Source: a virus. Taken from it: a stretch of DNA of 40,271 nucleotides. The stretch is taken from positions 1 to 40,271 of IMG/VR virus record IMGVR_UViG_3300023083_000007. The stretch is one strand, 5' to 3'. The notes under the pieces are model-generated. The model ran no database searches. It was not told where the DNA came from and was given only the letters and a program-made list of their open reading frames with translations. Each line of letters begins with the position of its first letter. Position 1 is the first letter of the stretch. Positions 3,864 through 38,586 of the stretch are shown piece after piece. The translations under genes were made by a program, and so were the position numbers.

Positions 3864-4028
3864 TTATTTCTTTGTTGATTTATCCACAAAAGACTTACCA
3901 AGGAACGTTACCTGTCTGATCTTGCCCTCTTTTATCCAGTTATAAACCGATTGCCGACTTACGCACTCTTGTTTAGCATAATTTTCAACTGTCACCAAAT
4001 TAATTGGGTTTATTTTTTCTTTTTCCAT
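3864..4028 (-). CDS. Short HTH protein, excisionase/MerR-like
   Basis: A 54-aa protein whose central part (about residues 12-45) has the pattern of the excisionase/MerR-type helix-turn-helix (HTH_17): VTVENYAK, then SRQSVYNWI and KIRQV. Such proteins act as excisionases (Xis) or small regulators. No integrase accompanies it, so a regulatory role is more likely. The start (ATG 4028-4026) is set by a promoter-like TATATTTG only 3 nt upstream, with TTG 20 nt further up, predicting a leaderless mRNA. It is separated from the upstream gene by a terminator hairpin at 4074-4101. Confidence 0.75.
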   Translation of the reverse strand: MEKEKINPINLVTVENYAKQECVSRQSVYNWIKEGKIRQVTFLGKSFVDKSTKK

Positions 4029-4031
4029 ATA

Positions 4032-4062
4032 CAAATATACATTATGTTTTACACTTTGTCAA
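4032..4062 (-). promoter_or_regulatory. Promoter of the HTH gene, leaderless type
   Basis: On the minus strand TTG (4062-4060), 20 nt, TATATTTG (4039-4032) match the Bacteroidota -33/-7 consensus. The start codon of the HTH gene follows after 3 nt. The promoter lies just downstream of the 4074-4101 terminator, so a new transcription unit covering the HTH, HNH, helicase and primase genes starts here. Confidence 0.7.
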
Positions 4063-4073
4063 GTTACCTTTTC

Positions 4074-4101
4074 CAAAAATAAAAGGGGAATTTCACCCCT
4101 T
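4074..4101 (-). terminator. Rho-independent terminator after the NUMOD1-like gene
   Basis: On the minus strand AAGGGG (4101-4096) pairs with CCCCTT (4088-4083) around a 7-nt loop, followed by a T-rich tract. The stop codon of the 4093-4509 gene lies in the loop. Confidence 0.75.
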
Positions 4102-4509
4102 AAATTTAAACCTTAACTGTGCCTTAGTTGGATGGTGAGTGTACGTTTTGCATTTAGCAATTAGATCACTATAGGCAATTCCTGTCATTTCTGAGCATAC
4201 TCTTATTGAATTAAACTCTGCAACTTTTACACCTTTACGATTAAACACTTCAATTGGAAAATCTCCTTTATATTCTTTACAATAAGGGTCTTTATCTATC
4301 ATGACCTGCACTCGTAGCCCCAACCTTCCCATTCTGTATTTGCAGATAAAAGTGCCGTCAGGCAATTCTCTATAATCTTTGTTGTCATAAAAAAGATTAC
4401 CTTTTTTACCGTCGTAGTACTTATCAAAAACTTCTGACATTGATTCGTATGATCTTAAATATGAATAGTCTGCCGCGTATTGATATAATTTTAATTTTAG
4501 CCTTCCCAT
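4093..4509 (-). CDS. NUMOD1-like DNA-binding protein without a nuclease domain
   Basis: The last 50 or so of 138 residues resemble the NUMOD1 module of homing endonucleases: VFNRKGVKVAEF, then a helix with SIRVCSEMTGI, a second short helix, and a final LRFKF strand replacing the usual W-R-Y ending. NUMOD1 is a DNA-binding helix-turn-helix module normally joined to GIY-YIG or HNH nucleases; no nuclease motif is present here. The N-terminal 85 residues are unrecognised and rich in Tyr and Lys. It may be a degenerate homing nuclease or a domesticated regulator. It overlaps the preceding basic-protein gene by 1 bp and ends in a terminator hairpin. Confidence 0.55.
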   Translation of the reverse strand: MGRLKLKLYQYAADYSYLRSYESMSEVFDKYYDGKKGNLFYDNKDYRELPDGTFICKYRMGRLGLRVQVMIDKDPYCKEYKGDFPIEVFNRKGVKVAEFNSIRVCSEMTGIAYSDLIAKCKTYTHHPTKAQLRFKFKG

Positions 4510-5123
4510 TAAATTATTCCAAACTTCCTCCTTAAAGCGTTAATATCATACCCAGGTTTAGCCCATACCTCGGTCTTAGCGTTTAACCTGACCTTGACCT
4601 TTCCATCTTCATTCGATTTAATGACGATCACATCCGGCTGTTTGGCGTGATCTAATTTTACCGGCTTAATCACTTTTTCGCTGATCCTGTTTGCTGGTCT
4701 TGCTTTGAGTATTTTTTCCATTGGTTTAGTTTTATGTTCTTTGCTTCGTTTTTTTACTGGTACTTGCCTTACTTTTCCTTGCATAGCCAATTTCTTTTCG
4801 TATGATTTACGTGACCTTTCGTTAGCATTGAATCTCCTTTGTTCATCTGTTAGAGGTACTCTTTTGATCCTCAACAATCTTGCTTCATCCCTTTTACGTT
4901 TGGCATAAACACGCATACGCTCTTTGTCTCTTTCACTTAAAGGCTTCATTATAGGTTTAATGCCAAGCGACCTCAATTCTGCTATTCTTTTTTGCTTTGC
5001 ATCATTTGATCTTTTCTGGTTTGCTAATTGTCGCTGGTGAACATCATTATTAGCTAATTTATTACGTAGTTTGTTTTCTCGTGCTAACCTTTGAGTGCGT
5101 TGTCTTTCTTCTAGGGATTTCAT
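4509..5123 (-). CDS. Highly basic coiled-coil protein
   Basis: This 204-aa protein is not recognised. It is extremely rich in Arg and Lys, with long predicted charged helices over about residues 1-140 (for example SLEERQRTQRLARENKLRNK and DKERMRVYAKRKRDEARLL) and a compact C-terminal 50 residues with alternating strands. Such composition suggests binding of DNA or RNA, or of acidic partners. It overlaps its upstream neighbour by ATGA and touches the NUMOD1-like gene downstream. Nothing indicates a virion location; the position in the early block favours an intracellular nucleic-acid role. Confidence 0.65.
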   Translation of the reverse strand: MKSLEERQRTQRLARENKLRNKLANNDVHQRQLANQKRSNDAKQKRIAELRSLGIKPIMKPLSERDKERMRVYAKRKRDEARLLRIKRVPLTDEQRRFNANERSRKSYEKKLAMQGKVRQVPVKKRSKEHKTKPMEKILKARPANRISEKVIKPVKLDHAKQPDVIVIKSNEDGKVKVRLNAKTEVWAKPGYDINALRRKFGII

Positions 5124-5275
5124 AACTTCATTTCTAACTGTCCAAAATTAAAACCTTGCCTGCCTCTCATATCGTAATACTCGTCATTGCCTAGTGATAT
5201 GCGTAATGCTTCCTCTCGCCATTCGATCATCTCATCGGCATTGAGCATTAGCATCCATTCTTCATACTGGCTCAT
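5120..5275 (-). CDS. Small acidic protein, 51 aa
   Basis: A short gene from ATG 5275-5273 to TGA 5122-5120. Its start overlaps the stop of 5272-5463 by ATGA and its stop overlaps the start of the basic-protein gene by ATGA, so three successive genes are coupled without a gap. The product is acidic in its first half (MSQYEEWMLMLNADEMIEWR...) and unrecognised. Acidic small proteins with Met/Glu-rich helices are common among phage host-takeover factors, but no function can be assigned. Confidence 0.65.
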   Translation of the reverse strand: MSQYEEWMLMLNADEMIEWREEALRISLGNDEYYDMRGRQGFNFGQLEMKL

Positions 5276-5463
5276 ACCTTTAGTTTTACGACGAATGCGT
5301 TAAAATTAAATGCTATATAAGTCCCTTGAGTGATAGACAGACGATGTAACCTAAAATCATCCTTTTGAAGGAACGATATATATGTTTCGCTTATATCGCC
5401 TATGCCGCTACCATCTCTATTGATTTGACCAATAAATTTAAGTTCGTGACCTTTCTTTTTCAT
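5272..5463 (-). CDS. Hypothetical protein, 63 aa
   Basis: A small protein of unknown function, basic at the N-terminus (MKKKGHELKF) and predicted to be mostly beta strand. There is no signal peptide or membrane segment. It overlaps the upstream 112-aa gene and the downstream 51-aa gene by ATGA junctions. Confidence 0.6.
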   Translation of the reverse strand: MKKKGHELKFIGQINRDGSGIGDISETYISFLQKDDFRLHRLSITQGTYIAFNFNAFVVKLKV

Positions 5464-5798
5464 ACTTCTTTTAATTTTTCAACTCCATCCATAAATTCTC
5501 TAATCTGATCAGCAGACTTTTCAGAAAAATAATCAACCAATCTATGAAACTGCAGCACATAATCGTATGTCATCGCTTCGTAGTCTTTAACCTTGAATTG
5601 ATATGCCAAATCTTTTTGAATCGTTTCTGAGGCTTCTTTGATGCGTCTAACGTGATTATTTGTGTTGGGGTTCTTAAACTTGGTGTCAACTATGCGTTTT
5701 TGGTACTCTACATCAATAGCTTTTGCTAGCAAACCTATTACATGTGCCGATTTAAGTATTTCAAATACTGTTTCGGGTGTTGGGGCTGTCTTGATCAT
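5460..5798 (-). CDS. Hypothetical helical protein, 112 aa
   Basis: Mostly alpha-helical by residue pattern, with no motif recognised. It begins by ATGA overlap with the DnaA-like gene and ends by ATGA overlap with the 63-aa gene, placing it in the same translational chain. Its direct neighbour, the DnaA domain IV protein, suggests but does not prove a role in replication control. Confidence 0.65.
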   Translation of the reverse strand: MIKTAPTPETVFEILKSAHVIGLLAKAIDVEYQKRIVDTKFKNPNTNNHVRRIKEASETIQKDLAYQFKVKDYEAMTYDYVLQFHRLVDYFSEKSADQIREFMDGVEKLKEV

Positions 5799-6148
5799 AA
5801 TAGTGATTTGATATGCGCCACCCGTTTCTGAAATTGACGATCTGTTTTATACAGTGCTTCGTATGTTTGGATTGAAAAGATAACCGTTGAATGGTCTCTA
5901 CCCCCAAACATTCCTCCAATCTTCTTTAGACTTAAGGCAGGATTGTTATACCGTATAAACGCCATTGCAATTTGACGACCTTCTACTAAAGGCCTTTTCC
6001 TGGATGATCCGGTAAGCGTTTCAATCGACACGCCCAAATCAATACATATAGCCTCTATAATGTTTGATGGTGATGCAGGCTTAATCCCTTTTTTCATTAG
6101 CATTTTATTCTTGTCGGATAAACCGGCATAAATGTAAGGACTAACCAT
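5795..6148 (-). CDS. Stand-alone DnaA domain IV (DnaA-box-binding) protein
   Basis: Residues 50-100 of this 117-aa protein carry the DnaA domain IV signature: RPLVEGRQIAM (53-62), SLKKIGGMFG (73-82) and the diagnostic GGRDHSTV (82-89), which in DnaA contacts the DnaA box. The AAA+ ATPase domain is absent; the N-terminal 45 residues are unlike DnaA. It could therefore bind DnaA boxes without the ATP-driven oligomer, either to start phage replication with the host machinery or to compete at host oriC. It overlaps the next gene by ATGA and the previous gene (6141-6350) by 8 bp. Confidence 0.85.
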   Translation of the reverse strand: MVSPYIYAGLSDKNKMLMKKGIKPASPSNIIEAICIDLGVSIETLTGSSRKRPLVEGRQIAMAFIRYNNPALSLKKIGGMFGGRDHSTVIFSIQTYEALYKTDRQFQKRVAHIKSLL

Positions 6149-6350
6149 TAAACGCCCTCCCTTCTACTATTGAGTCGTGCAGTTCCTCCCAGTAATCCAT
6201 ACCAGGTTCATTATTCCAATTGACTGCTAAAAATATAGCATCATATGCTGTTTCTACTTTCATATCAAGCATAGTTATAAATGCCGCATTGATTGCATTC
6301 GTACGGTGTGGTTCCGGTAGTTCTGATAGGTGTTGTTTGATTGTTAGCAT
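6141..6350 (-). CDS. Hypothetical acidic protein, 69 aa
   Basis: A small acidic protein with two probable helices and a WNNEPGMDYWEELHDSI segment. It resembles no characterised family I can name. It overlaps the methyltransferase-like gene upstream (7 bp) and the DnaA-like gene downstream (8 bp). Confidence 0.65.
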   Translation of the reverse strand: MLTIKQHLSELPEPHRTNAINAAFITMLDMKVETAYDAIFLAVNWNNEPGMDYWEELHDSIVEGRAFNG

Positions 6351-7018
6351 GATTGTGAGATTAAAAATTCAACTGACTGTTTTGCTATGGCTTCGGCTAT
6401 TCCTTTGTATGTTTTACTTCTTAGTTCTGCTCTGTTTTTACTAGGTGGTAATAAGTGTAACGCTTGAACTCTACCTTCTACTATCTTTGTAGATTTAACA
6501 TTTGGAAACCCTTTATTCCATAAGCACGTAGCTTTTGTTTCTCCATGTCCAAACATCCAGGGTTGCAATACCTGATCTGGCTTTCTGAAACGGCTACTCA
6601 TGACGCATATTGGATTTTCTATTCTAATGTATGGTATGTCACAATTATAAAGATTCATAAAGAACTTAATAGCCTTCTCTCTGGCCTCTCTACGCCGGGC
6701 CCCAACTAATGTACCTGATTTTCTTTCTGGCTGATCTTTATACCATTTGTTGGCTGAAACAGTAAGATACGTACAATCAGGGTGAAACACAGCGGCGTTC
6801 CATTCTGGTATAATTACTTTACTTCCATCCTGAGTTTCAATATAAATGCTTCCAATTGCTTCAAACACATCCCCTTGTATATGCCATTCTGGATGCCCAC
6901 CGCTGCAAGGCTTAAGATCACAACTAAATGCGTTAACGCCTAACCTTCTAAGTTCAATAGTGATAGCCTGGCTTTCTTCGCAACCCACTAAGAAGTATAT
7001 GTCTTCTGGTCTTTCCAT
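6344..7018 (-). CDS. Phage cytosine-C5 DNA methyltransferase-like protein
   Basis: This 224-aa protein fits a phage family usually labelled DNA cytosine methyltransferase. An N-terminal SAM-fold segment VGCEESQAIT...D (11-34) is followed by FHPDCTYLT (78-86) in the place of the catalytic Pro-Pro-Cys loop, then IENPICVMSS (133-142) in the place of the ENPxG motif, and PDQVLQPWMFGHGETKATCLW (147-167) typical of the family. The Pro before the Cys is Asp and the first Pro is His, so activity is uncertain, although Cys82 is present. A working enzyme would modify phage DNA against host restriction. It overlaps its neighbours by TAATG and 7 bp. Confidence 0.65.
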   Translation of the reverse strand: MERPEDIYFLVGCEESQAITIELRRLGVNAFSCDLKPCSGGHPEWHIQGDVFEAIGSIYIETQDGSKVIIPEWNAAVFHPDCTYLTVSANKWYKDQPERKSGTLVGARRREAREKAIKFFMNLYNCDIPYIRIENPICVMSSRFRKPDQVLQPWMFGHGETKATCLWNKGFPNVKSTKIVEGRVQALHLLPPSKNRAELRSKTYKGIAEAIAKQSVEFLISQSC

Positions 7019-7182
7019 TACGCTGTCCTCCTTACTGTTAGTTGTCCCTTAGTTAATTTACTTTGCCATTCACCCTTGCCGTTGCGTTTCAAACGTGTTT
7101 TTGTCGTGATAAAGCTGTCGTAGTTGAAATGAGACTTATCAGCCATTTCTCCTACTTTCATTTTTAAAAGTTCTTCTGTCAT
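7018..7182 (-). CDS. Hypothetical basic protein, 54 aa
   Basis: I chose ATG 7182-7180 as start. A longer frame could begin with TTG at 7215, but those codons overlap the terminator hairpin at 7201-7231, which makes them unlikely. The product ends strongly basic (RLKRNGKGEWQSKLTKGQ) and is unrecognised. Its stop overlaps the methyltransferase start by TAATG. Confidence 0.5.
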   Translation of the reverse strand: MTEELLKMKVGEMADKSHFNYDSFITTKTRLKRNGKGEWQSKLTKGQLTVRRTA

Positions 7183-7200
7183 TTCGTTAATATTTTTCAC

Positions 7201-7231: not shown

Positions 7232-7248
7232 GTTTGTAGGGAGGTCGC

Positions 7249-7486: not shown

Positions 7487-7487
7487 T

Positions 7488-10138: not shown

Positions 10139-10160
10139 TCGGATTATTTGATTACATTTG
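10131..10160 (+). promoter_or_regulatory. Rightward early promoter, leaderless type
   Basis: TTG (10131-10133), 19 nt, TACATTTG (10153-10160). The start codon of the first rightward gene is at 10166, only 5 nt after the box, so transcription should begin close to or at the ATG. Confidence 0.75.
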
Positions 10161-10165: not shown

Positions 10166-10372
10166 ATGGAGACAGAAAAACCAAAATATAGAAAGTTTGT
10201 ACTAAGGATTAGTAACGAGCTAAAAGAGAAAGCAGAAGTTAAAGCAAAAGAAGATAATAGGTCTTTAAATAGCTATATACTTAGCCTTATATCTGCAGAT
10301 CAAAAGGGATTTATAGTTAAAGGAAGTGATTTAATAAATGTAATTAAAAGATCAGTAAACCCAAGATCATGA
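10166..10372 (+). CDS. Arc/ribbon-helix-helix-like DNA-binding protein
   Basis: A 68-aa protein with the ribbon-helix-helix look: a short strand KYRKFVLRIS, helix ELKEKAEVKAKED, then NRSLNSYILSLIS, where N-R-S-L-N-S-Y is the helix-B start of many Arc-like repressors. The start at ATG 10166 is preferred to TTG 10148 because the -7 box lies between them. RHH proteins bind short palindromes as dimers of dimers; the twin palindromes at 10083-10138 are obvious candidate sites for autoregulation and for control of the leftward operon. The next gene overlaps it by ATGA. Confidence 0.7.
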   Translation: METEKPKYRKFVLRISNELKEKAEVKAKEDNRSLNSYILSLISADQKGFIVKGSDLINVIKRSVNPRS

Positions 10373-12709: not shown

Positions 12710-12968
12710 TTTGAGTTATGTTTATGTCGCCTGTATTGGTCGTTGCTGGAGGATTAGAAGTAAGTTTGGCAATCGTGTCATCCTTAGACGAGCTGCTTTT
12801 AGATCCGCCAAAGTAAAACGTAGCAGTAAGCAGTGCAATATCCAATATCCGGTTATTTATCCCTTCTGTAAGCCCTCCAAATTTAAGCAATGCACCAACA
12901 CCTATAATAACTATAAAAGCCAAAATAGCTTGTGTTTTGGTTGCGTGAATGAAGTCTAGGAGTTTCAT
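12690..12968 (-). CDS. Putative holin
   Basis: A 92-aa protein with one clear transmembrane segment (about 12-32) and a second, weaker one (39-55), then a polar Ser/Asn/Thr-rich tail. Size and placement, between amidase and spanin-like genes with overlaps of 4 and 20 bp, fit a holin that makes holes in the inner membrane to release the amidase. No specific holin family was recognised. Confidence 0.65.
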   Translation of the reverse strand: MKLLDFIHATKTQAILAFIVIIGVGALLKFGGLTEGINNRILDIALLTATFYFGGSKSSSSKDDTIAKLTSNPPATTNTGDINITQNEKPIN

Positions 12969-13663
12969 ACTAAATATTTAGAACTAACCCACCCTATCAG
13001 CTTACTTTTGCATACAAATACATTACTCCATCCATCCGATTCCGACAATACATTCACCTTTGTACCCTTTGGTAGCGTAGAAAGTAATTTACCTGTAGCT
13101 TTTCCGGTTTCCCGTATATTTAAATCAGAGGTAGTATGTTTAGTAGTCACTAAGTTAACTTTAGGCTGAACATTAAACACCTGTTTACGCAGCCATTCCA
13201 TAGGAAACTGTTTGCCTGGATCTGTTTTTCTACCAGGTGCTATATCTGAATGTCCTAATATTTCTTTAATGGGGTATACCTCAACAATAGCTTTACAGGC
13301 CAACACCAACGCGTCCAACTGAACTTGTGGATATTCTTGTGTACCTGTATTTTGACATTCAATACCAATAGAATGTGAATTTAGCCCTATAATCCCTTTC
13401 CATTCAGATTTGCCAGCATGCCAAGCAACTTTATTAAAAGGCACCAATTGAAAGAATATTCCGGCACCTCTATCTAAATGCAAATGTGCTGACACTTTAG
13501 ACTGAGGACTAAGCATCCACGATATTGCACCATCAGCGTTACTAGAAGCTGTGTAATGAATAATTATATATTCCGGATTAAGAACGCCTCCTATGTTTGG
13601 TGACTGTCTGAACGGTACTGGTTTACCGTCATTATCTAATAGTCTGTTATTTGCTATTTTCAT
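12965..13663 (-). CDS. Endolysin: N-acetylmuramoyl-L-alanine amidase with SH3b domain
   Basis: Residues 25-160 are an Amidase_2 (T7-lysozyme/PGRP-like) domain: IIIHYTAS with zinc ligand His36, WHAGKSEW (81-88), SIGIEC with a conserved Glu (98-103), and GHSDIAPGRKTDPG with His138 and Asp148. Residues 178-232 look like a bacterial SH3 domain (LNIRETG...KGTKVNVLSE...GWV), which would bind the cell wall. It cuts the amide bond between MurNAc and L-Ala. There is no signal peptide, so release depends on the holin encoded next. A weak -7-like TAACTTTA lies 4 nt upstream of the ATG. Confidence 0.9.
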   Translation of the reverse strand: MKIANNRLLDNDGKPVPFRQSPNIGGVLNPEYIIIHYTASSNADGAISWMLSPQSKVSAHLHLDRGAGIFFQLVPFNKVAWHAGKSEWKGIIGLNSHSIGIECQNTGTQEYPQVQLDALVLACKAIVEVYPIKEILGHSDIAPGRKTDPGKQFPMEWLRKQVFNVQPKVNLVTTKHTTSDLNIRETGKATGKLLSTLPKGTKVNVLSESDGWSNVFVCKSKLIGWVSSKYLV

Positions 13664-13771: not shown

Positions 13772-14392
13772 CTAAATGAATTCTGATATTGATTTTAATT
13801 CATATTTTATAGCCTTATGGAGTTTTCTGTAGTCTATTCCCAATTTTTCAGACCACTGTTTCATAGTTAATCTGACACCGTTGTGTTCCAATATTACGTT
13901 AGATTTCCTATTGTTATTTTGTTCCTTACTATTTGACCATTTACAATTGCCGGGTTCATAATTGCCAAAAACATTTATCCTATCAATACTATGATTAGGC
14001 GTTGGCGCTCTGCCTATGTCACTTAAGAAATCTTCATATGAATTTAACCATCTGTCGCATACAGTGATGCCTTTCCCTCCATAATCTTTGTAACTAATAT
14101 TGTTAGGATTATAACAGCGTTGTTTTATGGAGAACCAAAGTTTGTTTTCTTTTGTTTTATTAGCCTCCCCGTGTCTTTTGTTTATGCTGCCAACTTTTTC
14201 CTTTTGATAACACCCACAGCTCTTAGTTGTTCCTATAGCCCCAGACGCTAATTTAATTTCGTTCCCACATTCACATTTACAAAGCCAAAAAATAACTTTC
14301 TTTTTCCCCGAATAAAACGAACCTATCTCGTTTATTACCGTAAGTCTACCTGAATTAAATCCTGTTTTGTCTATTTTATTTGTTAATCCCAT
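13772..14392 (-). CDS. Free-standing AP2/HNH-type homing endonuclease
   Basis: This 206-aa protein belongs to a common phage family of HNH/AP2-type nucleases. An N-terminal LTVI strand is followed by zinc-binding cysteines CKCECG (38-43) and SCGC (58-61), then RCYNPNNISYKDYGGKGI (92-109) and the nuclease core SIDRINVFGNYEPGNCKW (135-152). The C-terminus (165-206) has a helix-turn-helix-like ending (MKQWSEKLGIDYRKLHKAI). Such genes spread by cutting related phages at intergenic sites. A TATCTTTG box 4 nt before the ATG and the terminator behind it make it its own transcription unit. Confidence 0.85.
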   Translation of the reverse strand: MGLTNKIDKTGFNSGRLTVINEIGSFYSGKKKVIFWLCKCECGNEIKLASGAIGTTKSCGCYQKEKVGSINKRHGEANKTKENKLWFSIKQRCYNPNNISYKDYGGKGITVCDRWLNSYEDFLSDIGRAPTPNHSIDRINVFGNYEPGNCKWSNSKEQNNNRKSNVILEHNGVRLTMKQWSEKLGIDYRKLHKAIKYELKSISEFI

Positions 14393-14396: not shown

Positions 14397-14404
14397 CAAA
14401 GATA
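14397..14404 (-). promoter_or_regulatory. -7 box of the AP2/HNH gene, leaderless type
   Basis: TATCTTTG on the minus strand lies 4 nt before the ATG. A TTG 15 nt upstream (14422-14420) is closer than usual, so the -33 part is weak. Confidence 0.5.
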
Positions 14405-15638: not shown

Positions 15639-15690
15639 GCAATTATTGTAACATTATAGATACCTGTATAAAAATTCGAGATCGTGTGTT

Positions 15691-15698
15691 TATATTTG
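15691..15698 (+). promoter_or_regulatory. -7 box of the 15703 island, leaderless type
   Basis: TATATTTG ends 4 nt before ATG 15703. No clear TTG lies 18-20 nt upstream. It is divergent from the possible leftward box at 15631-15638. Confidence 0.55.
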
Positions 15699-16768: not shown

Positions 16769-18320
16769 ACTCGGTATCCATCCTGCCTAACATTTCGTAA
16801 GTTTTAGGTGTAGGGTGTATAGTGTCTCTTAACCTAACGGTATAGTTATATATGCCAATGCCACTATCTTGAAATTTATCCAAAACAGGCACTGAATACA
16901 TTTCGCATATCTCTTTAATGGCATTGGCAAATAACTTTCTACCATTAAATACATCTACATCAGACGTAGTCCCACCCGGGCCTTCAACTGTGCCGTTATT
17001 ACCGTATAATGGGGTTGAGACCAATATAGGAATGTTTGGATTGTTAGCGACTAACGAGTAAATCAATTCTTTATAGGCCCCGTAAAACGTTGTATGACCG
17101 GGATCGAAAATAGTTCCTAATGGCACCTCGTACCCAAAGTCGTTTGTGCCTCCGTTCAAGTAAATCAAGTCAGGATTACTAGCGTTAATCAGCGCAACTC
17201 GCTCTAAGGTAGAAACGCCACCGCCTGGATTAGAACCGTACCCCGGGGTTATAGTTGAGCCGGCAACAGCTAAATTTGTACTAATGATGCCTAGTGTATC
17301 TATAACTACCTGTTGGGATTGATCTTCTGCAAAGATACTGTCACCGCACCATGTCACCCGCTTGCCTTCCCAAAACGAATCGGATGAAGAAGACGTAAGA
17401 CCTTCATAAATCGCATAAGGCAAAACGTCAAAATCTTCGTTTATCTCTACAAAGCCTCCGAATACATATTTTTTACCAGCAACAGCCCCTAATACGAAAA
17501 AGTTATGCCCATAGTAAACTGCGACGCCTATTGATGATAATGGCGTAATTACTATTTTAATGAAACTAAAACTGCCGTTAACGGCCTTGGTTGAAATATT
17601 GAGTTGACCTGTAGTTCTCTGAAAGTTAATGGTCTGCATTTCGCCCTTACTGATATTTATCGTTTGTGGGCTACCTAAATCATTCATGGATATACCATAG
17701 AACGTTAAGCCGAAATTAATACCTCCAGATTCTATCAACGCGGTGTTAACCCAAAAACCAACAGAGCTTTTTTTGCTGTAGTTTATAGTACCTAATGCAT
17801 TGGTATAAAACTGCTGATTGCCCCCTGATGATGGAGTATAAGCTAGGCTATCTGGGTAATTGGAAACAGTTTCATTTGGCAATAACTGCAACACTCCAGA
17901 TGTACTGCCTACGCCTAACAACGTAGTGTTCATGTGTTGTAGCTTATTGGGCAACGTAGTGCCCGATATAGTTTTATATATTTCTGGTTTCCCTAACGAT
18001 ATCCCAACTGTCAACACCCATGCGCCACTGACATATGACCATAAATTCAGTTCACTAGTTGCCGTTTGCCCGCTAAAAGTGCCATCACTTGTTAAAGTAT
18101 AGTAATTACCAGGAACAGCTAGCGTAGGTAACGTATTGCCGGTAGTTTGCAAATATCCGCTAGAGCCAATTGACGAAAGATATGGCGCTAAAAATGCTGT
18201 CAATTCTGACATGGTAAACTTACCAGAAAACCCATTCGGACTTGCGCCCTCTAAAAAAGACGTAATAGCCAAGGTAAGGTCTGGCAGTTCAGGTATAGTT
18301 ATCGTTTCAAATTCAGGCAT
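16752..18320 (-). CDS. Tail-tip or fibre protein with SGNH esterase domain
   Basis: The 522-aa protein has an N-terminal 300 residues of beta-rich, Ser/Thr/Gly-rich sequence typical of tail fibres and a C-terminal SGNH hydrolase (about 320-522). GDS places the nucleophile at Ser328, an Asn/Gly block II lies near 349-354, GGTND (390-394) is block III, and DTIHP supplies Asp499 and His502. SGNH enzymes on phage tails usually remove acetyl or other acyl groups from surface polysaccharide, aiding adsorption. It is the last gene of the leftward tail unit and overlaps the tail-tube paralogue gene upstream by 8 bp. Confidence 0.85.
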   Translation of the reverse strand: MPEFETITIPELPDLTLAITSFLEGASPNGFSGKFTMSELTAFLAPYLSSIGSSGYLQTTGNTLPTLAVPGNYYTLTSDGTFSGQTATSELNLWSYVSGAWVLTVGISLGKPEIYKTISGTTLPNKLQHMNTTLLGVGSTSGVLQLLPNETVSNYPDSLAYTPSSGGNQQFYTNALGTINYSKKSSVGFWVNTALIESGGINFGLTFYGISMNDLGSPQTINISKGEMQTINFQRTTGQLNISTKAVNGSFSFIKIVITPLSSIGVAVYYGHNFFVLGAVAGKKYVFGGFVEINEDFDVLPYAIYEGLTSSSSDSFWEGKRVTWCGDSIFAEDQSQQVVIDTLGIISTNLAVAGSTITPGYGSNPGGGVSTLERVALINASNPDLIYLNGGTNDFGYEVPLGTIFDPGHTTFYGAYKELIYSLVANNPNIPILVSTPLYGNNGTVEGPGGTTSDVDVFNGRKLFANAIKEICEMYSVPVLDKFQDSGIGIYNYTVRLRDTIHPTPKTYEMLGRMDTEFIKRH

Positions 18321-18849
18321 TTTTTATTTCGATTAAATTGTTGTTTCCGTCTTGTCTTATTTCGTCACCATATGGCGTTGTTGCTCTTAATAGCTTGATT
18401 ACATCGCCCGTTAGGGTCGTCGGCCTACCAATCCCCACAAATGAAGCGGTAAAGGTATAAAGGCTGTTCATTTGCGCTGTCTCTCTGTACGACCCAATCC
18501 TACACCATATTTCGCGGACAATAGTCATGTCGGCATCTGCTTGCATAATCCAAAATTCGCGCTTGTCATAGAACAGTTCGGCTAGTTCTTGAAAGTTAGC
18601 CTTTATCAGCTTCTCCGCCATTCTTAACCCTATTGCCTGCCCGTCCATATCAAAATTGGTAGATATATACCCTGTAGTGCTTTGATCATATCCTCCGTCC
18701 ATTTTATTATGCAGGGATATACCTTCAGCATCGCCACCCCAATTGTTGGATGTGCCACAAGCAACCGGCCGGTAATCAGCACCATGCCCCGCTGAACGAG
18801 GGGTATCTGTATCAATTAAGATCACGTAAGAATCGCCTGTGATTGCCAT
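18313..18849 (-). CDS. Second tail-tube-like protein (paralogue of the major tail protein)
   Basis: This 178-aa protein shares the plan of the tail-tube protein at 24571-25053: an opening strand with IDTDT, then RPVxCxxSN, an NK-G-S-x-G segment, a central GQAI, ANFxELxEL, and an ending TF...GIG. These matches run in order along the two chains, so they are probably paralogues. The tube fold also occurs in distal tail and baseplate-hub proteins, and the position beyond the tape measure fits a tail-tip ring or a minor tube subunit. It lies 18 bp after the small tail gene and overlaps the SGNH gene. Confidence 0.7.
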   Translation of the reverse strand: MAITGDSYVILIDTDTPRSAGHGADYRPVACGTSNNWGGDAEGISLHNKMDGGYDQSTTGYISTNFDMDGQAIGLRMAEKLIKANFQELAELFYDKREFWIMQADADMTIVREIWCRIGSYRETAQMNSLYTFTASFVGIGRPTTLTGDVIKLLRATTPYGDEIRQDGNNNLIEIKNA

Positions 18850-18867
18850 AGTTCAAATATAATCAAT

Positions 18868-24570: not shown

Positions 24571-25053
24571 CTATACGGTTGGAGGTGATAAGAATAATTC
24601 GCCTATTCCAGTTAAGGTAATATCAAAAGTAATCGCCTCTTGGTTTGGCTGGCCTTCTGATTGAGACGAGTTATATACTAACCCTTCACGGTAATATAGA
24701 GTGGAAGCGGTATTGGTGATACGAGCAAAGAACGCTGTACCCGATTTCCAAAGCTCCATCAGCTCGTTGAAGTTCGCATAATCAGCTTCCGGTGCCTGAG
24801 CTGCTGAGATAGCCTGTCCGTTACCTGTGATATTCCACGACTTAACACCTGACTGAGAAGTTTTAAAGCCTCCAGAGCATTTATTAGTCGTTTCCTGATC
24901 GGCAGCAGTAGCATCCACGCCATTACTGACTAAACATACTACAGGTCTGAAATTAGCGTCTACACCCCTCACTGCGGTAGGAGTAGTTGTTCGGGTTTCA
25001 GTGTCTATCTCAATAATAAACTCTGTACCTAAAATTGGGTCAAATACTGGCAT
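24571..25053 (-). CDS. Major tail tube protein
   Basis: A 160-aa protein of the TP901-1-like tail tube type: EFIIEIDTET near the start, a beta-rich core, SWNITGNGQAIS, ANFNELMELW, and a closing ITFDITLTGIGEL strand. It polymerises into the tail tube around the tape measure. It heads the tail unit: a TACTTTTG box with TTG 20 nt upstream lies 23 nt before the ATG. A paralogue is encoded at 18313-18849. The tail terminator gene, usually its neighbour, is separated by the inserted plus-strand island. Confidence 0.85.
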   Translation of the reverse strand: MPVFDPILGTEFIIEIDTETRTTTPTAVRGVDANFRPVVCLVSNGVDATAADQETTNKCSGGFKTSQSGVKSWNITGNGQAISAAQAPEADYANFNELMELWKSGTAFFARITNTASTLYYREGLVYNSSQSEGQPNQEAITFDITLTGIGELFLSPPTV

Positions 25054-25076: not shown

Positions 25077-25107
25077 CAAAAGTACAACAAGATTGTTACA
25101 ATTGCAA
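25077..25107 (-). promoter_or_regulatory. Promoter of the tail module
   Basis: TTG (25107-25105), 20 nt, TACTTTTG (25084-25077) on the minus strand. The leader is 23 nt. The region also carries a direct repeat, GATTGTTACA, at 25091-25100 and 25111-25120, flanking the -33 element, which suggests regulator binding. Confidence 0.65.
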
Positions 25108-25120
25108 TATGATTGTTACA
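25091..25120. repeat. Direct repeat GATTGTTACA at the tail-module promoter
   Basis: Two exact 10-bp copies (25091-25100 and 25111-25120), with starts 20 bp apart (about two helical turns), flank ATTGCAAT. A dimeric regulator could sit on one face of the DNA here and affect both the leftward tail promoter and the rightward island promoter. Confidence 0.5.
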
Positions 25121-25142: not shown

Positions 25143-25150
25143 TATGTTTG
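25143..25150 (+). promoter_or_regulatory. -7 box of the RNA-ligase island, leaderless type
   Basis: TATGTTTG ends 3 nt before ATG 25154. The -33 element is not clear. It is divergent from the tail-module promoter at 25077-25107. Confidence 0.55.
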
Positions 25151-25825: not shown

Positions 25826-26407
25826 ATGAAAAAGATTAGTACGTTATTTAAAAAAGATCCTAATGATTTGGGGAGAGTCATTAACGAAATAAATCCTGAA
25901 AACAATTGGATATTTGACAAGGGCGTAACCGCTACCCGTAAATGGGATGGAACCTCTTGTGCCATTATTAATGGCGAACTATACAAACGTTACGACGTAA
26001 AGAAAGGTAAGTCGATACCTGAAAATGCAATACCCTGCCAAGAGCCTGATGAAATAACAGGACATTGGCCTCATTGGGTTAAATGTGATAGGTCGAATAA
26101 TGGCGATCAATGGCACTTTAAAGCATTTGATGAAGCGCCTAAATTAGAAGACGGAACTTATGAACTTTGTGGGCCAAAAATACAAGGCAACCCAGAAGAT
26201 TTAAAGTTTCATTATTTAGTTAAACATGGTAAGCATGAGGTTGCTATGGGAGGCATGCCGGCAATGAAGTATGCGTCTAGCTTAATATTTGTCTATTTTG
26301 AAAAGTTTCTATCAGACGTTAATAACAATATAGAAGGTATTGTATTTCATCATCCTGACGGACGTATGTGTAAATTAAGAAAATCAGATTACGGAATTAA
26401 AAGATAA
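25826..26407 (+). CDS. RNA ligase (DUF5565-like, covalent nucleotidyltransferase)
   Basis: The 193-aa protein has the ordered motifs of ATP-dependent RNA ligases: motif I KWDG with the AMP-accepting Lys39, a motif III-like YELCGPK (112-118), motif IV EGIVFHH (170-176) and motif V KLRK (183-186). TGHWPHWVKC (78-87) and DGRM are typical of the phage DUF5565 group. It would seal RNA nicks or repair cleaved tRNA, a known phage answer to host anticodon nucleases. No polynucleotide kinase gene was recognised nearby. The gene is in a plus-strand island within the tail module, a moron-like position. Confidence 0.85.
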   Translation: MKKISTLFKKDPNDLGRVINEINPENNWIFDKGVTATRKWDGTSCAIINGELYKRYDVKKGKSIPENAIPCQEPDEITGHWPHWVKCDRSNNGDQWHFKAFDEAPKLEDGTYELCGPKIQGNPEDLKFHYLVKHGKHEVAMGGMPAMKYASSLIFVYFEKFLSDVNNNIEGIVFHHPDGRMCKLRKSDYGIKR

Positions 26408-27909: not shown

Positions 27910-28260
27910 CTACCTCTCCGGCAAAGCTTCAGCCTTACCAATAATAACCAGCCATTCCTTCGCTACGAAATCAACCTCAGCCGTAATAACTGTAAAATAT
28001 TGCCCCCTCCATTTAATACGCATATCAGGCGTTACAAACTTATCTTGCCTATAGCGTACTGTAAACGTTACAGCGGGAGTTAGTATGTCTTGTAAAGCTT
28101 GTAACGTCCTGTCTGCTCTAATCTGGTCGGTCATAGCTGAGGTAGCCCAATATAGAACGTCTAAGGGGTAAGTGCCACCGCTGCCATCTTCGACAAGTGA
28201 CTGCTTATATATCTCAATACTCTGGTTTAAATCGCCAGATGTGATTAGCTTTTTTTTCAT
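27910..28260 (-). CDS. Head-tail joining / head closure protein
   Basis: This 116-aa protein has the pattern of the phage head-tail adaptor family (SPP1 gp16 / HK97 gp7-like): SGDLNQSIEIYK at the start, a beta-rich middle with WATSAMTDQIRAD, VTFTVRYRQ, and MRIKWRGQYFTV near the end. It forms the ring that closes the connector after packaging. It overlaps the connector gene upstream by ATGA. Confidence 0.8.
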   Translation of the reverse strand: MKKKLITSGDLNQSIEIYKQSLVEDGSGGTYPLDVLYWATSAMTDQIRADRTLQALQDILTPAVTFTVRYRQDKFVTPDMRIKWRGQYFTVITAEVDFVAKEWLVIIGKAEALPER

Positions 28261-28805
28261 ATCACCAAATTCCTAGAGTACCGACTTGCCATATTCAAAG
28301 CGGTCTGACTAACCATTGGCCCCTCTGGCTGTCCACGTAACTTATACATGTGGTCAATTTGTGCTAACAAAGCTAATTTAAGCGTCTGTGGCAATACTTC
28401 ATAGCCCGTTTGATAGATACACTTGTACAACGGTTCGTCTCCTACACGGCCAAATGGCGTGTATTCAGCATAACCTCCAGATATAGAATAAAACCATTGC
28501 CCATCAGTATTACCGTTCCAATTTACCCATATAGATTTAGCTTGATAACCATCAGTCGAATATTCCACGTCTTCCCCTTCGCTATCTTTCACGCTGACAA
28601 TAGCAATAGTAGGGCTTAACGGTAATTCTTGCTTACACCCGTTCCATTGAAACTCTAATTCCATCGGCACAAGTCCTATGTTCAATTCATCCTGCATAAT
28701 CTGTCTTGCCGCACCCGCAGTAAGTTCCAGGAAACTATCCTCAGCCACATAGTCAGCGTCAATGCGTAGGAATGCTTTTATCTCTTGTAAGGTTACTGGT
28801 TCCAT
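28257..28805 (-). CDS. Head-tail connector protein (gp6-like)
   Basis: A 182-aa protein of the HK97 gp6/phage gp15 adaptor type. It starts with VTLQEIKAFLRIDADY, then ELTAGAARQIMQDEL, a strand-rich middle with LPLSPTIAIVSV, and a C-terminal helical part. It docks on the portal. A TATATTTG box (28835-28828) lies 22 nt upstream of the ATG and is divergent from the plus-strand gene at 28859. Confidence 0.8.
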   Translation of the reverse strand: MEPVTLQEIKAFLRIDADYVAEDSFLELTAGAARQIMQDELNIGLVPMELEFQWNGCKQELPLSPTIAIVSVKDSEGEDVEYSTDGYQAKSIWVNWNGNTDGQWFYSISGGYAEYTPFGRVGDEPLYKCIYQTGYEVLPQTLKLALLAQIDHMYKLRGQPEGPMVSQTALNMASRYSRNLVI

Positions 28806-28827
28806 AATGTAACAATAATGTTATAAG

Positions 28828-28835
28828 CAAATATA
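28828..28835 (-). promoter_or_regulatory. -7 box upstream of the connector gene
   Basis: TATATTTG on the minus strand, 22 nt before the connector ATG. No TTG lies 18-20 nt upstream. It is 12 bp from the opposing TACATTTG box at 28848-28855. Confidence 0.45.
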
Positions 28836-28847
28836 GTTAATTGGGCT

Positions 28848-28855
28848 TACATTTG
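28848..28855 (+). promoter_or_regulatory. -7 box of the 28859 gene, leaderless type
   Basis: TACATTTG ends 3 nt before ATG 28859. The -33 element is not clear. It faces away from the connector -7 box. Confidence 0.5.
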
Positions 28856-35220: not shown

Positions 35221-35368
35221 CGTCTTCTGTTGTGATATTGTTAATGTTTAGCGTTTCGTCTAAATCAGTACTATCATTTATCAGCAGAAAAGCGTCTTCA
35301 AACCCGCGCTTGTATGCTTTCATGATTAACGACACGTCAGCAATAAGGGTATATTCAAGTTTTGCCAC
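35213..35368 (-). CDS. Small protein between portal and MuF, 51 aa, GTG start
   Basis: GTG 35368 lies 2 nt after the portal stop and the frame closes at TAA 35215-35213, 8 bp into the MuF gene. The product (V/MAKLEYTLIADVSLIMKAYK...) starts with a hydrophobic strand/helix and ends acidic (NITTEDDA). An ATG at codon 16 is an alternative start. It fills the only gap between portal and MuF; no family was recognised. Confidence 0.5.
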   Translation of the reverse strand: MAKLEYTLIADVSLIMKAYKRGFEDAFLLINDSTDLDETLNINNITTEDDA

Positions 35369-35370
35369 AT

Positions 35371-36750
35371 CTACAAGTTTTGAGGTGCGTTAGGATCGTT
35401 AGCATTTGGCGTGTCGGCAAATTCGTCATTGATCAAATCTTCGAATTTCATTAAGCCAGTAGCAATCAAATAATTTTTACCTAATCCGTCACGCATTTCA
35501 TCAAACCCGAATATAGCCCTGCGTTCATCTTCATCTAACGTAGGCTGTCCGTATATTTCACGCATCAGTTTTAAATCCGGTGCAAGTTCTGTAAACTCGG
35601 TTAAATCGTGGCAAGCAATAATATCCGGCCACCATTGAAAGGTGCGCTGTGTTAGTTTCTGATCGAATTTACGTAGGATAGAAACGATTGTATTAGTAAC
35701 TAATGACTTATACCCGGCAATGATTGAATTTTCGCTTACCGATGACGCGGCAGGAGATAAAACGAATGGTACGCCACAAATCGTATATATATTCTTCCAA
35801 TGTGAATCTTCGGCATTTATAGCATCGGTTTCCACCATCGTATCGCCAAATGTCTCAGCTTTAACGTAACCGTTAGTGAAATGTAGCTTTTTGTAATTCT
35901 CTATGCCAGCGTAATCAGATTTAATGGTTGATTTCAGTGCATCCATTTGAGCAGCCGTCATCTTCTCTGTCACCTCCCCATCAGTTCCGACAAGGATATC
36001 AGAGCTGAACATCGTCCCGCGCCCCCCGTTCTTAAATGCGGCCCCTTGCATGGCGTTATTAGCATTGTTCAATGAAATATCCATCGAAGCAATTTGGTCA
36101 ACCCCTAAGCCCTTTAATTCGCCTATATTAGGATTCCAGTGCTTTAGGTGTAATACTCTGTCTTTTGGTATTTCTATCTGAGTTCCGTTAATCCCTGAAT
36201 AGATGTATTTTGCTATCCCATCAAACGCCAAATTAGACTGAACAACTTCTACCCTATCACGCCTTAATGAATGTACGGCGATAGGCTGCTTATTCCTGGA
36301 AGATTCATCACCTAACGACTCGAAATACAGAAAACCGTCCCCATAACCATAGTTAAACCAGAAATCTTCCATCATTTCAATACCTGACTGATACTCATTT
36401 GGAGAATCAAATAACGCATTTAAGGGGTGATTTTCTTGCTCATCTAATGATTGAGCCTTTATTCTTTGCCTATCTTCGTTAGAGATAGCCTTAGAATAAT
36501 ACTTTCTTAGCTTCTGTTCGCCTCCTTTTTTACGTTTAGAAAACATAATAGGGGCTTCCGTTAGCTTATTTACAAGAATGTTTTGTGCTGAGTAGAATAT
36601 TTTATTATTATAGGCCGACATGCCATTGAGTGACCATCTGAACGTGTTGCCAAATACTAACGGTAGTGCCGCGCCTAAATTGGGATAGGCCTTACTAATG
36701 GTATCAACTGATTTGCCGAACATTACTTTCAGCCCTTCCTTTATCTGCAT
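35371..36750 (-). CDS. Portal protein
   Basis: The 459-aa protein fits phage portal proteins of the HK97/SPP1-like class: KSVDTISKAYPNLGAAL near the start, a middle with GDGFLYFESLGDESS, RVLHLKHWNPN (about 199-209), and a wing/clip-like PLGVDQI-type segment (LKGLGVDQIASMDISLNNAN), then GVPFVLSP and DEDERRAIFGFDEM. It forms the dodecameric gate for DNA packaging and exit. A promoter with TACATTTG only 4 nt before the ATG predicts its own leaderless mRNA. It lies 44 bp after the large terminase gene. Confidence 0.85.
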   Translation of the reverse strand: MQIKEGLKVMFGKSVDTISKAYPNLGAALPLVFGNTFRWSLNGMSAYNNKIFYSAQNILVNKLTEAPIMFSKRKKGGEQKLRKYYSKAISNEDRQRIKAQSLDEQENHPLNALFDSPNEYQSGIEMMEDFWFNYGYGDGFLYFESLGDESSRNKQPIAVHSLRRDRVEVVQSNLAFDGIAKYIYSGINGTQIEIPKDRVLHLKHWNPNIGELKGLGVDQIASMDISLNNANNAMQGAAFKNGGRGTMFSSDILVGTDGEVTEKMTAAQMDALKSTIKSDYAGIENYKKLHFTNGYVKAETFGDTMVETDAINAEDSHWKNIYTICGVPFVLSPAASSVSENSIIAGYKSLVTNTIVSILRKFDQKLTQRTFQWWPDIIACHDLTEFTELAPDLKLMREIYGQPTLDEDERRAIFGFDEMRDGLGKNYLIATGLMKFEDLINDEFADTPNANDPNAPQNL

Positions 36751-36754
36751 ACTA

Positions 36755-36785
36755 CAAATGTAACATTATGGATATGTATTTGCAA
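36755..36785 (-). promoter_or_regulatory. Portal promoter, leaderless type
   Basis: TTG (36785-36783), 20 nt, TACATTTG (36762-36755) on the minus strand, 4 nt before the portal ATG. TGTAACA (36759-36765) overlaps the -7 box. Confidence 0.7.
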
Positions 36786-36794
36786 TATATGAAT

Positions 36795-38120
36795 TTAGCT
36801 TGATTGCATTACTGTTCTTTCTTTTTTGGGAGCTTTAATTATTGGCCACGCTACATATCTGATTGGATCTATATAGTGATTCCACAAATCTACAGGCACA
36901 CCCGCTTTCTTGTCTGACCACACGTAATTGTTCAGTTCTTTGATTATCGGGATGCTTTCATTACCCGGGTCTACTATTATCTCGTAGCCTTGCATGTCTT
37001 TTATCGAGGCAGTTACCGACCCCGGCCCTTTAATTGCGCCCTTTATTTTAAGTTCACGCTTGCTTAACTCAGATATTAACCTTGGCTCTGCGCTATCGCC
37101 TGTTATCTCGCTGTTTAACCCACAATGGAATAGGTTAGCCAAATAAATATCATTGGTAGACATGCCGGCTTTACCAAAGCAGCCCTTAACGTATATTTTC
37201 TTGTGCTTAATGCTAACAGCTACCTTAACAAGGGTCGTAGGATCAGCCGAGAAGCCATAATCCTGACCAAATGCGTAAGGTAAACTGTCATCAAACGCTC
37301 CAATAGACCAATTGTCAAATACTACCCCTTCAGCATTTTCTAGCCAACCCCCTGCAATCACATGAATATAGTAATTAGCTTTTTTAATGATTTTCTTATC
37401 AAGATATTCGCGCTTATCCTTATCAGTAGCCATATACAGCTCATAGGCTATGCGCTTATCTTCAAAGTCAAGGTAAATAGAGTCTGGTATAAATTCGCGC
37501 TTTAAATCCCTGTAATCAGTATGGATGTATAAAACATTATCTTTAATCCCATTAAAACCTTCTTGCACACCCCTATCCTCAAACAATTCTTCATATATCC
37601 AGTGTGTTTTTACGGCAGGGTTAAGTATCAGTATTGATAAGTTACGCACATCTAGTGCCCTAATAGACTTCTTAATCTTATCCCATTGATCAAATGAAGG
37701 TAATTCTTCGGCTTCTTCAACTATGAATACTGAGAATCCTTTTAATGATTTCAGGTTGGCAGTTTGATTACCCGATCCGGTTTTTATACCTTTAAACACA
37801 ATCTTACTGGCATTAAAATTACCTACAATACGATCCCTGGTAACTGTAAAATCTTCATGAACGCCAAGAATATCTATCTTCTCTGAAAACTCAGGAATGA
37901 TTGAATCAGAGGCAGAAACTAGTGTGTAACGGGTGTATAATATCCTATGCACAAAGTCTTTAGCGGCTATGCATGACCATGTACCTACCGCGAATGACTT
38001 CTGGCTATACCTGCCTCCAGTGCAAACAACAGTATCCACTTTAGCTAACTCATCGGTATCTAAACAAGAAAGCCACTTAAAAAGTGGCGCGTATTTCTTG
38101 GATAATATCAGTTCGTCCAT
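36795..38120 (-). CDS. terL: Terminase large subunit (TerL)
   Basis: A 441-aa PBSX-type large terminase. The ATPase half has Walker A GGRYSQKS (35-42) and Walker B VFIVEEAEE (131-139) with a coupling segment ILILNPAV (162-169). The RNase-H-like nuclease half has GQDYGF with Asp287, GDSAEP with Asp342, and a C-terminal YIDPIRY with Asp418. It powers DNA packaging and cuts concatemers. Its start immediately follows the small-subunit stop. Nearest known types use headful (pac) or cos mechanisms; the sequence here does not decide which. Confidence 0.9.
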   Translation of the reverse strand: MDELILSKKYAPLFKWLSCLDTDELAKVDTVVCTGGRYSQKSFAVGTWSCIAAKDFVHRILYTRYTLVSASDSIIPEFSEKIDILGVHEDFTVTRDRIVGNFNASKIVFKGIKTGSGNQTANLKSLKGFSVFIVEEAEELPSFDQWDKIKKSIRALDVRNLSILILNPAVKTHWIYEELFEDRGVQEGFNGIKDNVLYIHTDYRDLKREFIPDSIYLDFEDKRIAYELYMATDKDKREYLDKKIIKKANYYIHVIAGGWLENAEGVVFDNWSIGAFDDSLPYAFGQDYGFSADPTTLVKVAVSIKHKKIYVKGCFGKAGMSTNDIYLANLFHCGLNSEITGDSAEPRLISELSKRELKIKGAIKGPGSVTASIKDMQGYEIIVDPGNESIPIIKELNNYVWSDKKAGVPVDLWNHYIDPIRYVAWPIIKAPKKERTVMQSS

Positions 38121-38552
38121 TTACTCGAATTTGATAGTCGTTTTAGGTGTCATTGTGCCGTCAGTAGATGAGTGGTCTATTTCTTGTTTGTCTCTCCACT
38201 GTTTAGATTGCCTGTTCTTAAGCCAAAATATAGCTGCAGTTGTGTCAGGCGCATAATGTTTTATAAGGTCAGTCTTTATGATTTGACCTTCATACATTTT
38301 AATATCCACTTCGGGATGCTCATAGCCGGTAGCTCTTTTAAAGAGCTTATGCGCAACTTCACTGTCTGCTTGTTTCTTACCTCTTTTTATGGAATCGGAA
38401 AATTCTTCATGAACTTTCTTCCATTCTTGAACTGTATCAACGTTTACTTCGAAAAAATCAGCTAATTCCTGGTCTGTAGCGCCTAACAAGCATAACTTAT
38501 AAGCCTGCTTAGGATACTTATCGCTGTATTTTGTTGGTCGTCCTAAATCCAT
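38121..38552 (-). CDS. terS: Terminase small subunit (TerS)
   Basis: This 143-aa protein opens with a helix-turn-helix typical of small terminases: GRPTKYSDKYPKQAYKLCLLG, ATDQELADFFEVNVDTVQEWK (about 29-49), followed by coiled-coil-like helices (HEEFSDSIKRGKKQADSEV) and a C-terminal region that would contact TerL (FWLKNRQSKQWRDK). It recognises the packaging start site. A strong promoter lies directly upstream with its -7 box 4 nt before the ATG, so the late head operon seems to begin with a leaderless mRNA. Confidence 0.85.
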   Translation of the reverse strand: MDLGRPTKYSDKYPKQAYKLCLLGATDQELADFFEVNVDTVQEWKKVHEEFSDSIKRGKKQADSEVAHKLFKRATGYEHPEVDIKMYEGQIIKTDLIKHYAPDTTAAIFWLKNRQSKQWRDKQEIDHSSTDGTMTPKTTIKFE

Positions 38553-38556
38553 AATT

Positions 38557-38586
38557 CAAATATACGACATTAACGCTTGAATACAA
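38557..38586 (-). promoter_or_regulatory. Late promoter at the terminase genes, leaderless type
   Basis: TTG (38586-38584), 19 nt, TATATTTG (38564-38557) on the minus strand match the consensus, and the TerS ATG follows after 4 nt. The promoter overlaps the 3' end of the preceding small gene. Confidence 0.75.

Follow-up and report, generated by a model that had tools for sequence, protein, structure and literature searches.

The sigma-ABfr promoters of Bacteroidota combine a TTTG element at -33 with a TAnnTTTG box at -7. Mapping of transcription start sites (TSS) in Flavobacterium psychrophilum places this box at -12 to -5 (PMC9723704), and RNA-seq in Flavobacterium johnsoniae gives a box-to-TSS spacing of 4 or 5 nt and little signal at -33 (PMC6847099). 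Here we consider the placement of such boxes in a virus sequence of 40,271 nt, IMG/VR record IMGVR_UViG_3300023083_000007, whose whole length we call the window. At nine of its starts the box lies only 3 to 5 nt before the ATG, and the same geometry recurs in related phages. The best reading of these sequences, and in our judgment a likely one, is that many messages of the phage and its relatives begin at the start codon, that is, as predicted leaderless mRNAs.

Leaderless or very short-leadered messages make up about 4-13% of the mRNAs mapped experimentally in Bacteroidota, under differing cut-offs: F. psychrophilum has 5.5% leaderless messages (PMC9723704), in Bacteroides thetaiotaomicron 5' untranslated regions (UTRs) shorter than 10 nt amount to about 3.7% (PMC7366714), and leaders of 10 nt or less account for 13% of the promoter set in F. 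johnsoniae (PMC6847099). A survey of 37 Bacteroidetes/Chlorobi genomes detected leaderless genes in one (PMC3160421). The geometry predicted for the phage is the same as in the three mapped species. A leaderless phage message is known from lambda, whose cI mRNA naturally lacks a leader (PMC4965119); there a single regulator gene is concerned, whereas the present clade involves many structural and accessory genes and another sigma type. In the literature searched, limited to the top listings, we found no description of leaderless transcription in Bacteroidota phages. To our knowledge Bacteroidota do without Shine-Dalgarno sequences, and how they choose their start codons is still debated. A lineage in which more than half of the near-start promoters look leaderless would offer natural messages on which leaderless initiation in Bacteroidota could be tested.

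Box placement in the window, its relatives and other genomes

An earlier note on this sequence had listed eight boxes with gaps of 3 to 5 nt, all of which match the window in position and gap (Table 1); a ninth box, TATATTTG, which it lacked, lies 4 nt 5' of the minus-strand ATG of a tail protein gene (18849). Each of the four plus-strand islands is headed by a boxed start, as had been proposed, and the terminase, portal and nuclease named among the boxed genes are identified by PHROGs as terminase small subunit, portal and HNH endonuclease. The description of the pattern as genome-wide needs qualification: the boxed starts exceed the eight listed, but they represent only 9 of the 73 ATG starts of the window (open reading frames, ORFs, of at least 50 amino acids; ORF sets throughout are mechanical, being the longest non-overlapping ATG ORFs and not curated genes). 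The -7 box is that of sigma-ABfr promoters, and a TTG stands 19-20 nt upstream of it in four of the nine cases and 22 nt upstream in a fifth. Unlike those promoters, the phage boxes lie 3-5 nt from the ATG, and some have a palindrome over the -33 region instead.

As an explanation, chance matches of an AT-rich motif can be set aside as refuted, with next to no probability left to them. In the shuffle control that the earlier note had proposed, here 300 dinucleotide shuffles of the 60 nt before each start, gap 3-5 starts averaged 0.19 and never exceeded 2, against the nine observed, and among 30 letter arrangements of the motif TA..TTTG alone scored 9, the remaining 29 reaching at most 2 each. 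Over the whole window the box is only mildly enriched (68 vs 51 expected), as chance would allow; the extreme feature is its placement beside the ATG, not its abundance. The clade-wide excess and the conservation of the portal promoter, described next, also tell against chance.

Searches of IMG/VR with TerL and portal returned 26 loci each, and the clade set comprises 31 contigs (720 kb, many of them fragments) with 926 deduplicated ATG starts; its members share kinship and are not independent, which makes the p-values below only a guide. At the portal gene, 24 of the 26 loci, representing 13 distinct upstream sequences, carry TAnnTTTG (19) or TAnnTTTA (5) 3-5 nt before the ATG, and in the 12 longer contigs the geometry is present at 11 of 13 portal genes. 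Over the whole clade the box stands at gap 3-5 before 66 of the 926 starts (22, 39 and 5 at gaps 3, 4 and 5), compared with a mean of 2.27 and a maximum of 5 in 60 shuffles of the upstream regions, and 27 of the 31 contigs have at least one such start. Gaps of 6-14 nt occur at 5 starts and gaps of 15-26 nt at 47, giving two gap classes. The near-empty interval between them suggests that very short leaders are avoided, and the second class indicates that the clade, judged by box position, also uses leadered promoters. Of the 113 boxes in the two classes 66 are at gap 3-5, a proportion not strictly comparable with the published figures, which count all mapped leaders. The variant TAnnTTTA likewise peaks in the clade, at gaps 4 and 5 (21 and 7 of the 926 starts).

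Conservation can also be followed gene by gene with tblastn, passing over rows that start after residue 12. The geometry is found in the closest relatives of the 18849 tail gene in contigs G012 and G001, is kept at the terminase small subunit gene of G012 and G002, and is kept at the 4028 gene in G006, the AlpA-like family to which the latter belongs showing it in 3 of 5 members from the 12 longer contigs. Two records, that of G012 (L037-L039, 59 kb) and that of L164/L166 (77 kb), have two portal matches each; they appear to carry two related structural modules apiece and are possibly joined assemblies.

How far the pattern is particular to these phages was judged against other phages and against Bacteroidota genomes. 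The nearest TerL relatives in named genomes include those of Dyadobacter (61% identity), Sphingobacterium (53%) and Chryseobacterium (50%); the first two are the host genera sampled for comparison. Gap 3-5 starts number 22 of 1173 in other phages whose TerL is related (82 loci without host assignment; clade odds ratio 4.0, p 2e-9), 5 of 652 in Dyadobacter (9.9, p 5e-11), 8 of 480 in Sphingobacterium (4.5, p 4e-6) and 1 of 232 at prophage loci (17.7, p 6e-6). Gap 3-5 and gap 15-26 starts stand at 66:47 in the clade, compared with 22:34 in the other phages (p 0.02), 5:27 in Dyadobacter (p 2e-5), 8:25 in Sphingobacterium (p 7e-4) and 1:5 at the prophage loci (p 0.09). Individual isolates have few such starts (B124-14 1/61, P12024S 1/48, phi18:1 0/52, RAP44 0/74), and a 50-kb stretch of Pedobacter has none at 37 starts. 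Shuffles are nevertheless exceeded outside the clade as well, in other phages (22 vs 2.5), Dyadobacter (5 vs 0.9) and Sphingobacterium (8 vs 1.0). The gap 3-5 class is wider than the clade and is enlarged within it. The suggestion of a phage strategy accordingly stands in that the clade exceeds both the sampled host genera and the other phages, and falls short in that both show the same, smaller peak: together with the 47 clade starts at gaps 15-26, that peak speaks for expanded use of an existing option, not for a separate rule. This phage group stands apart in how far it uses leaderless-type placement and in the palindrome that accompanies it.

A rather unlikely alternative holds that the phage merely mirrors an unidentified host lineage richer in leaderless genes and uses promoters in an ordinary, host-like way. 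The small peaks in Dyadobacter and Sphingobacterium and the leaderless mRNAs published for the phylum (PMC9723704; PMC7366714) agree with this, as does the strong variation in the density of boxes 4 nt before an ATG among 148 Bacteroidota genomes. That density, however, reaches only about 49 per Mb in the top genome, G070, and about 25 per Mb in the top one of 41 Dyadobacter-family genomes (both read by eye), whereas the clade has 84 and the window, with 5 sites, 124; other phages have 41, Dyadobacter 14, Sphingobacterium 13 and prophage loci 6, and an unselected 200-kb sample of G070 has gap 3-5 boxes at only 3 of 149 starts. The preference of the clade for T before and G after the ATG was, moreover, not seen in the other sets, those of the hosts being small, at 5 and 8 starts. 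Within the genome survey, G070, G144, G074 and G173 have 3- to 12-fold more boxes 4 nt before an ATG than 11 nt before one, so that host lineages may vary strongly in how much they use leaderless starts; the G144 stretches, picked partly near known matches, were excluded from claims on gene-start fractions.

Predicted transcription start and start codon

With the published box-to-TSS distances (PMC9723704; PMC6847099), a gap of 4 nt, the commonest in the clade, puts +1 on the A of the AUG. The boxes would then be -7 elements of host sigma-A (sigma-ABfr-type) promoters, at which RNA polymerase would start on, or within about 1 nt of, the A of the start codon. The base before the ATG agrees with this placement: it is T or C at 62 of the 66 gap 3-5 starts but at 421 of 857 other starts (p 4e-14), which fits pyrimidine-purine transcription start sites. 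A G follows the ATG at 35 of 66 as against 249 of 857 (p 1e-4). The effect is also restricted to one start codon: at gap 3-5 there are 61 ATG where 7.8 are expected, but one GTG (2.3) and one TTG (3.6), as would fit the AUG dependence of leaderless initiation (PMC4965119).

Several observations weigh against a leaderless interpretation, or at least against its generality. The box is lacking at two of the 26 portal loci (L008 and L154), where the N-terminus differs, and the portal genes of G001 and G015 are the two of 13 in the longer contigs without the geometry. The latter is likewise missing from the terminase small subunit genes of G004 and G006 (two of four rows), from both HNH relatives found (33-35% identity), from the relatives of the 15703 gene in G008 and of the 28859 gene in G006, and from 9 of the 11 members of the 28859 family in the longer contigs, being present in two; tblastn of the clade contigs found no relative of the 10166 or 25154 genes. 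Two further points concern the exact start. Where the gap is 3 nt (22 of 66 clade starts; in the window 4028, 25154 and 28859), either transcription begins one base closer to the box than the mapped norm or the A of the AUG is lost. In the leadered class the pyrimidine-purine step falls most often on base 6 past the box (18 of 35) and less often on base 5 (11 of 35), a peak that would fit a gap of 5, the rarest.

These last two points are what favours the view that the boxes are promoters, but that transcription begins elsewhere, or translation at a later codon, and the mRNAs are not leaderless. We regard it as improbable. The portal box follows its ATG within 2 nt over 24 loci, protein similarity runs from residue 1 in most portal loci, the effect is seen with ATG alone and not with GTG or TTG, and gaps 6-14 are almost empty. 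The claim that the mRNAs start at or near the ATG is supported in that the geometry, kept at the portal loci and far in excess of shuffles, predicts a +1 on or beside the A of the AUG, and less exactly borne out by the gap-3 starts and the leadered-promoter step.

Space saving is another explanation, and a quite improbable one: short intergenic regions would simply push promoter and start codon together. The portal box does sit within a 44-bp intergenic space, and the lower quartile of upstream space is 43 nt for gap 3-5 starts and 55 nt for gap 15-26 starts. The medians, however, are similar (66.5 vs 72 nt; 92 and 67 starts, respectively; p 0.26).

On the leaderless reading, the genes directly behind the boxes (terminase small subunit, portal, tail protein, HNH nuclease, small regulators and the four island heads) would be made from leaderless mRNAs, which are presumably translated via the ordinary 5'-AUG/70S route, a step extrapolated from E. 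coli work (PMC4965119); genes farther along each unit would be translated from internal sites. The sequence itself shows where the boxes stand, that they are conserved at the portal, that the gaps form two classes, that only ATG is concerned and that a pyrimidine precedes it; promoter activity, the precise +1, leaderless translation and any advantage to the phage are inferred from these. The earlier note had considered altered host initiation as well. No sequence sign of altered host initiation or ribosomes turned up, although no search was aimed at such signs, and altered ribosomes are unsupported.

A palindrome at fixed distances from the boxes

Many of the clade promoters are accompanied by a palindrome, TGTAAC-N6-GTTACA. 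It was discovered in the same data; its fixed offsets are descriptive, and other spacers and the reversed motif serve as controls. When up to 2 mismatches are allowed, a first 582-kb clade set holds 160 sites, whereas the other 15 spacers yield 22-53 and the everted arrangement 21-52 (identical sites were merged and homologous ones counted repeatedly, for the control spacers too). Intergenic sites account for 105 of the 160, though 92% of the sequence lies in ORFs, while the control spacers range from 2 of 42 to 11 of 53. In nine whole records, parts of which overlap this set, there are 47 sites with at most one mismatch versus 5 for the reversed motif. The same spacer test gave no excess in other phages, Sphingobacterium or Dyadobacter. 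Nor does the window alone show one. Allowing 3 mismatches it has 26 matches where chance gives 22.6, a count of 26 being reached in 30 of 100 shuffles, and allowing 2 it has five sites, the same number as for one other spacer; the case for the palindrome therefore rests on the clade and on position.

Relative to the box, the palindrome lies at -39 in 17, at -40 in 4, at -44 in 4 and at -14 in 10 of the 66 gap 3-5 promoters, 40 of which have it somewhere between -70 and +4; the corresponding figures for 45 leadered promoters are 8, 2, 2 and 4, with 19 having it anywhere. Matches to the reversed motif (11 and 2, respectively) are scattered over all 75 offsets. Such fixed distances support the boxes as real promoters, and the occurrence at leaderless and leadered promoters alike marks the palindrome as a probable regulatory layer and not the cause of leaderlessness. 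In the window it precedes islands 2, 3 and 4 at -44, -40 and -40 and is absent from island 1.

If the box is at -12 to -5, offset -39 centres the palindrome at -42.5, a class II activator position, whereas offset -14 overlaps the -7 box, as would be expected of a repressor site. If boxes ending in either G or A are taken, 113 gap 3-5 starts remain after deduplication. Among these the -14 offset occurs only on the structural-gene strand (17 of 17), offsets from -39 to -49 occur 19 times on the opposite strand and 16 times on the same one, and 61 starts have none of them. The fixed distances from the boxes suggest one palindrome-binding regulator that would activate from about -42.5 and repress where the palindrome overlaps the -7 box. 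A TTG at -33 is found in 2 of 39 promoters with an upstream palindrome, 10 of 15 with one at -14 and 17 of 58 without; the first figure is not independent evidence, because the palindrome fills that place. Lambda CI acts as both activator and repressor, and the palindrome-promoter distances seen here recall it. We found no description of TGTAAC-N6-GTTACA in the top listings of the literature searched, and the palindrome could offer a handle on phage gene control. The top hit, on the UmuDAb operator of Acinetobacter, shares the TGTAAC string but has outer palindromic arms around one GTnAC core and is a different operator (PMC11332147).

A more tentative reading, which we hold to be less likely than not, is that leaderless promoters have become the main form of near-start promoter in this lineage and that many are run as one regulon, in which a phage-encoded regulator with the site TGTAACAATATTGTTACA would activate the opposite-strand islands and others from about -42.5 and repress portal-type late promoters at the -7 box, the mRNAs starting with AUG and translation relying on the start codon alone. 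Among the 148 Bacteroidota genomes, 65 have a match to TTGTAAC-N6-GTTACAA (at most one mismatch), by eye 0-3 sites each except for three genomes with 5, 6 and 9, and the reversed motif behaves similarly; so few sites make a phage regulator the more likely. A host-borne palindrome was rejected on these counts, though an unsampled host could carry it.

Candidates for the regulator were sought by tblastn in the 31 clade contigs, the window included. The AlpA-like protein of 4028 was found in 2 (its family being in 5 of the 12 longer contigs by blastp clustering), the Arc-like protein of 10166 in 1 and the DnaA_C-like protein of 5795 in 2; as none is general among the contigs searched, all three were rejected as clade-wide regulator. 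The 28859 family was also rejected, its window member having no Pfam match. The 5795-6148 gene (minus strand) encodes a stand-alone DnaA C-terminal DNA-binding domain (Pfam Bac_DnaA_C, E 1e-18), 91% identical in G001.

Feature coordinates and neighbouring genes

Table 1. Boxes, palindromes and associated genes in the window. Mismatches are counted against TGTAAC-N6-GTTACA.
Feature	Coordinates	Strand	Distance to ATG	Remarks
TATATTTG box	38557..38564	-	4 nt before ATG 38552	TTG 19 nt upstream
Terminase small subunit gene	38121-38552	-		phrog_309
TACATTTG box	36755..36762	-	4 nt before ATG 36750	TTG 20 nt upstream
Degenerate palindrome	36759..36776	-		3 mismatches; overlaps portal -7 box, offset -14
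Portal gene	35371-36750	-		phrog_12
TATATTTG box (ninth)	18854..18861	-	4 nt before ATG 18849
Tail protein gene	18313-18849	-		phrog_1407
TATCTTTG box	14397..14404	-	4 nt before ATG 14392
HNH endonuclease gene	13772-14392	-		phrog_374
TATATTTG box	4032..4039	-	3 nt before ATG 4028	TTG 20 nt upstream
Excisionase/AlpA-like HTH gene	3864-4028	-		54 aa; PHROGs
TACATTTG box	10153..10160	+	5 nt before ATG 10166	TTG 19 nt upstream; no palindrome nearby
Arc/HicB-like ribbon-helix-helix gene	10166-10372	+		Head of plus-strand island 1; PHROGs
Palindrome	15647..15664	+		2 mismatches; 44 bp upstream of 15691 box start
TATATTTG box	15691..15698	+	4 nt before ATG 15703	Head of plus-strand island 2
Second palindrome	25083..25100	+		2 mismatches; 60 bp upstream of 25143 box start
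Palindrome	25103..25120	+		2 mismatches; 40 bp upstream of 25143 box start
TATGTTTG box	25143..25150	+	3 nt before ATG 25154	Head of plus-strand island 3
RNA ligase gene	25826-26407	+		Inside plus-strand island 3
Palindrome	28808..28825	+		1 mismatch; 40 bp upstream of 28848 box start
TACATTTG box	28848..28855	+	3 nt before ATG 28859	Head of plus-strand island 4
TACTTTTG box, leadered type	25077..25084	-	23 nt before ATG 25053
Major tail protein gene	24571-25053	-
TATATTTG box, leadered type	28828..28835	-	22 nt before ATG 28805
Head-tail adaptor gene	28257-28805	-
TAATTTTG box, possible third leadered promoter	5143..5150	-	19 nt before ATG 5123	Gene 4509-5123
Palindrome	171-188			At most 2 mismatches

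The product of the 28859 gene belongs to a PHROGs family of unknown function and aligns with phrog_10066 from residue 1; those of 15703 and 25154 have no PHROGs match. Two palindromes of the plus-strand islands also overlap or lie close to leadered boxes on the other strand. The one at 25083-25100 overlaps the end of the box before the major tail protein gene, and the one at 28808-28825 follows closely downstream of the box that serves the head-tail adaptor gene, which makes 28808-28855 a possible divergent switch where one bound protein could favour one strand over the other.

At the edge of the window, a TAATTTTA box stands 5 nt before an internal minus-strand ATG at 135, with a palindrome at offset -40. 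This suggests that the true start of the edge gene is possibly 135 and not 189; ATG 135 (45 aa, at the window edge) was left out of the box counts. A palindrome match at ATG 40246 was disregarded as an artefact of slicing past the sequence end. Finally, the ATG at 13663 that opens the endolysin/amidase gene (12965-13663, minus strand) is preceded, at a gap of 4 nt, by the variant box TAACTTTA.

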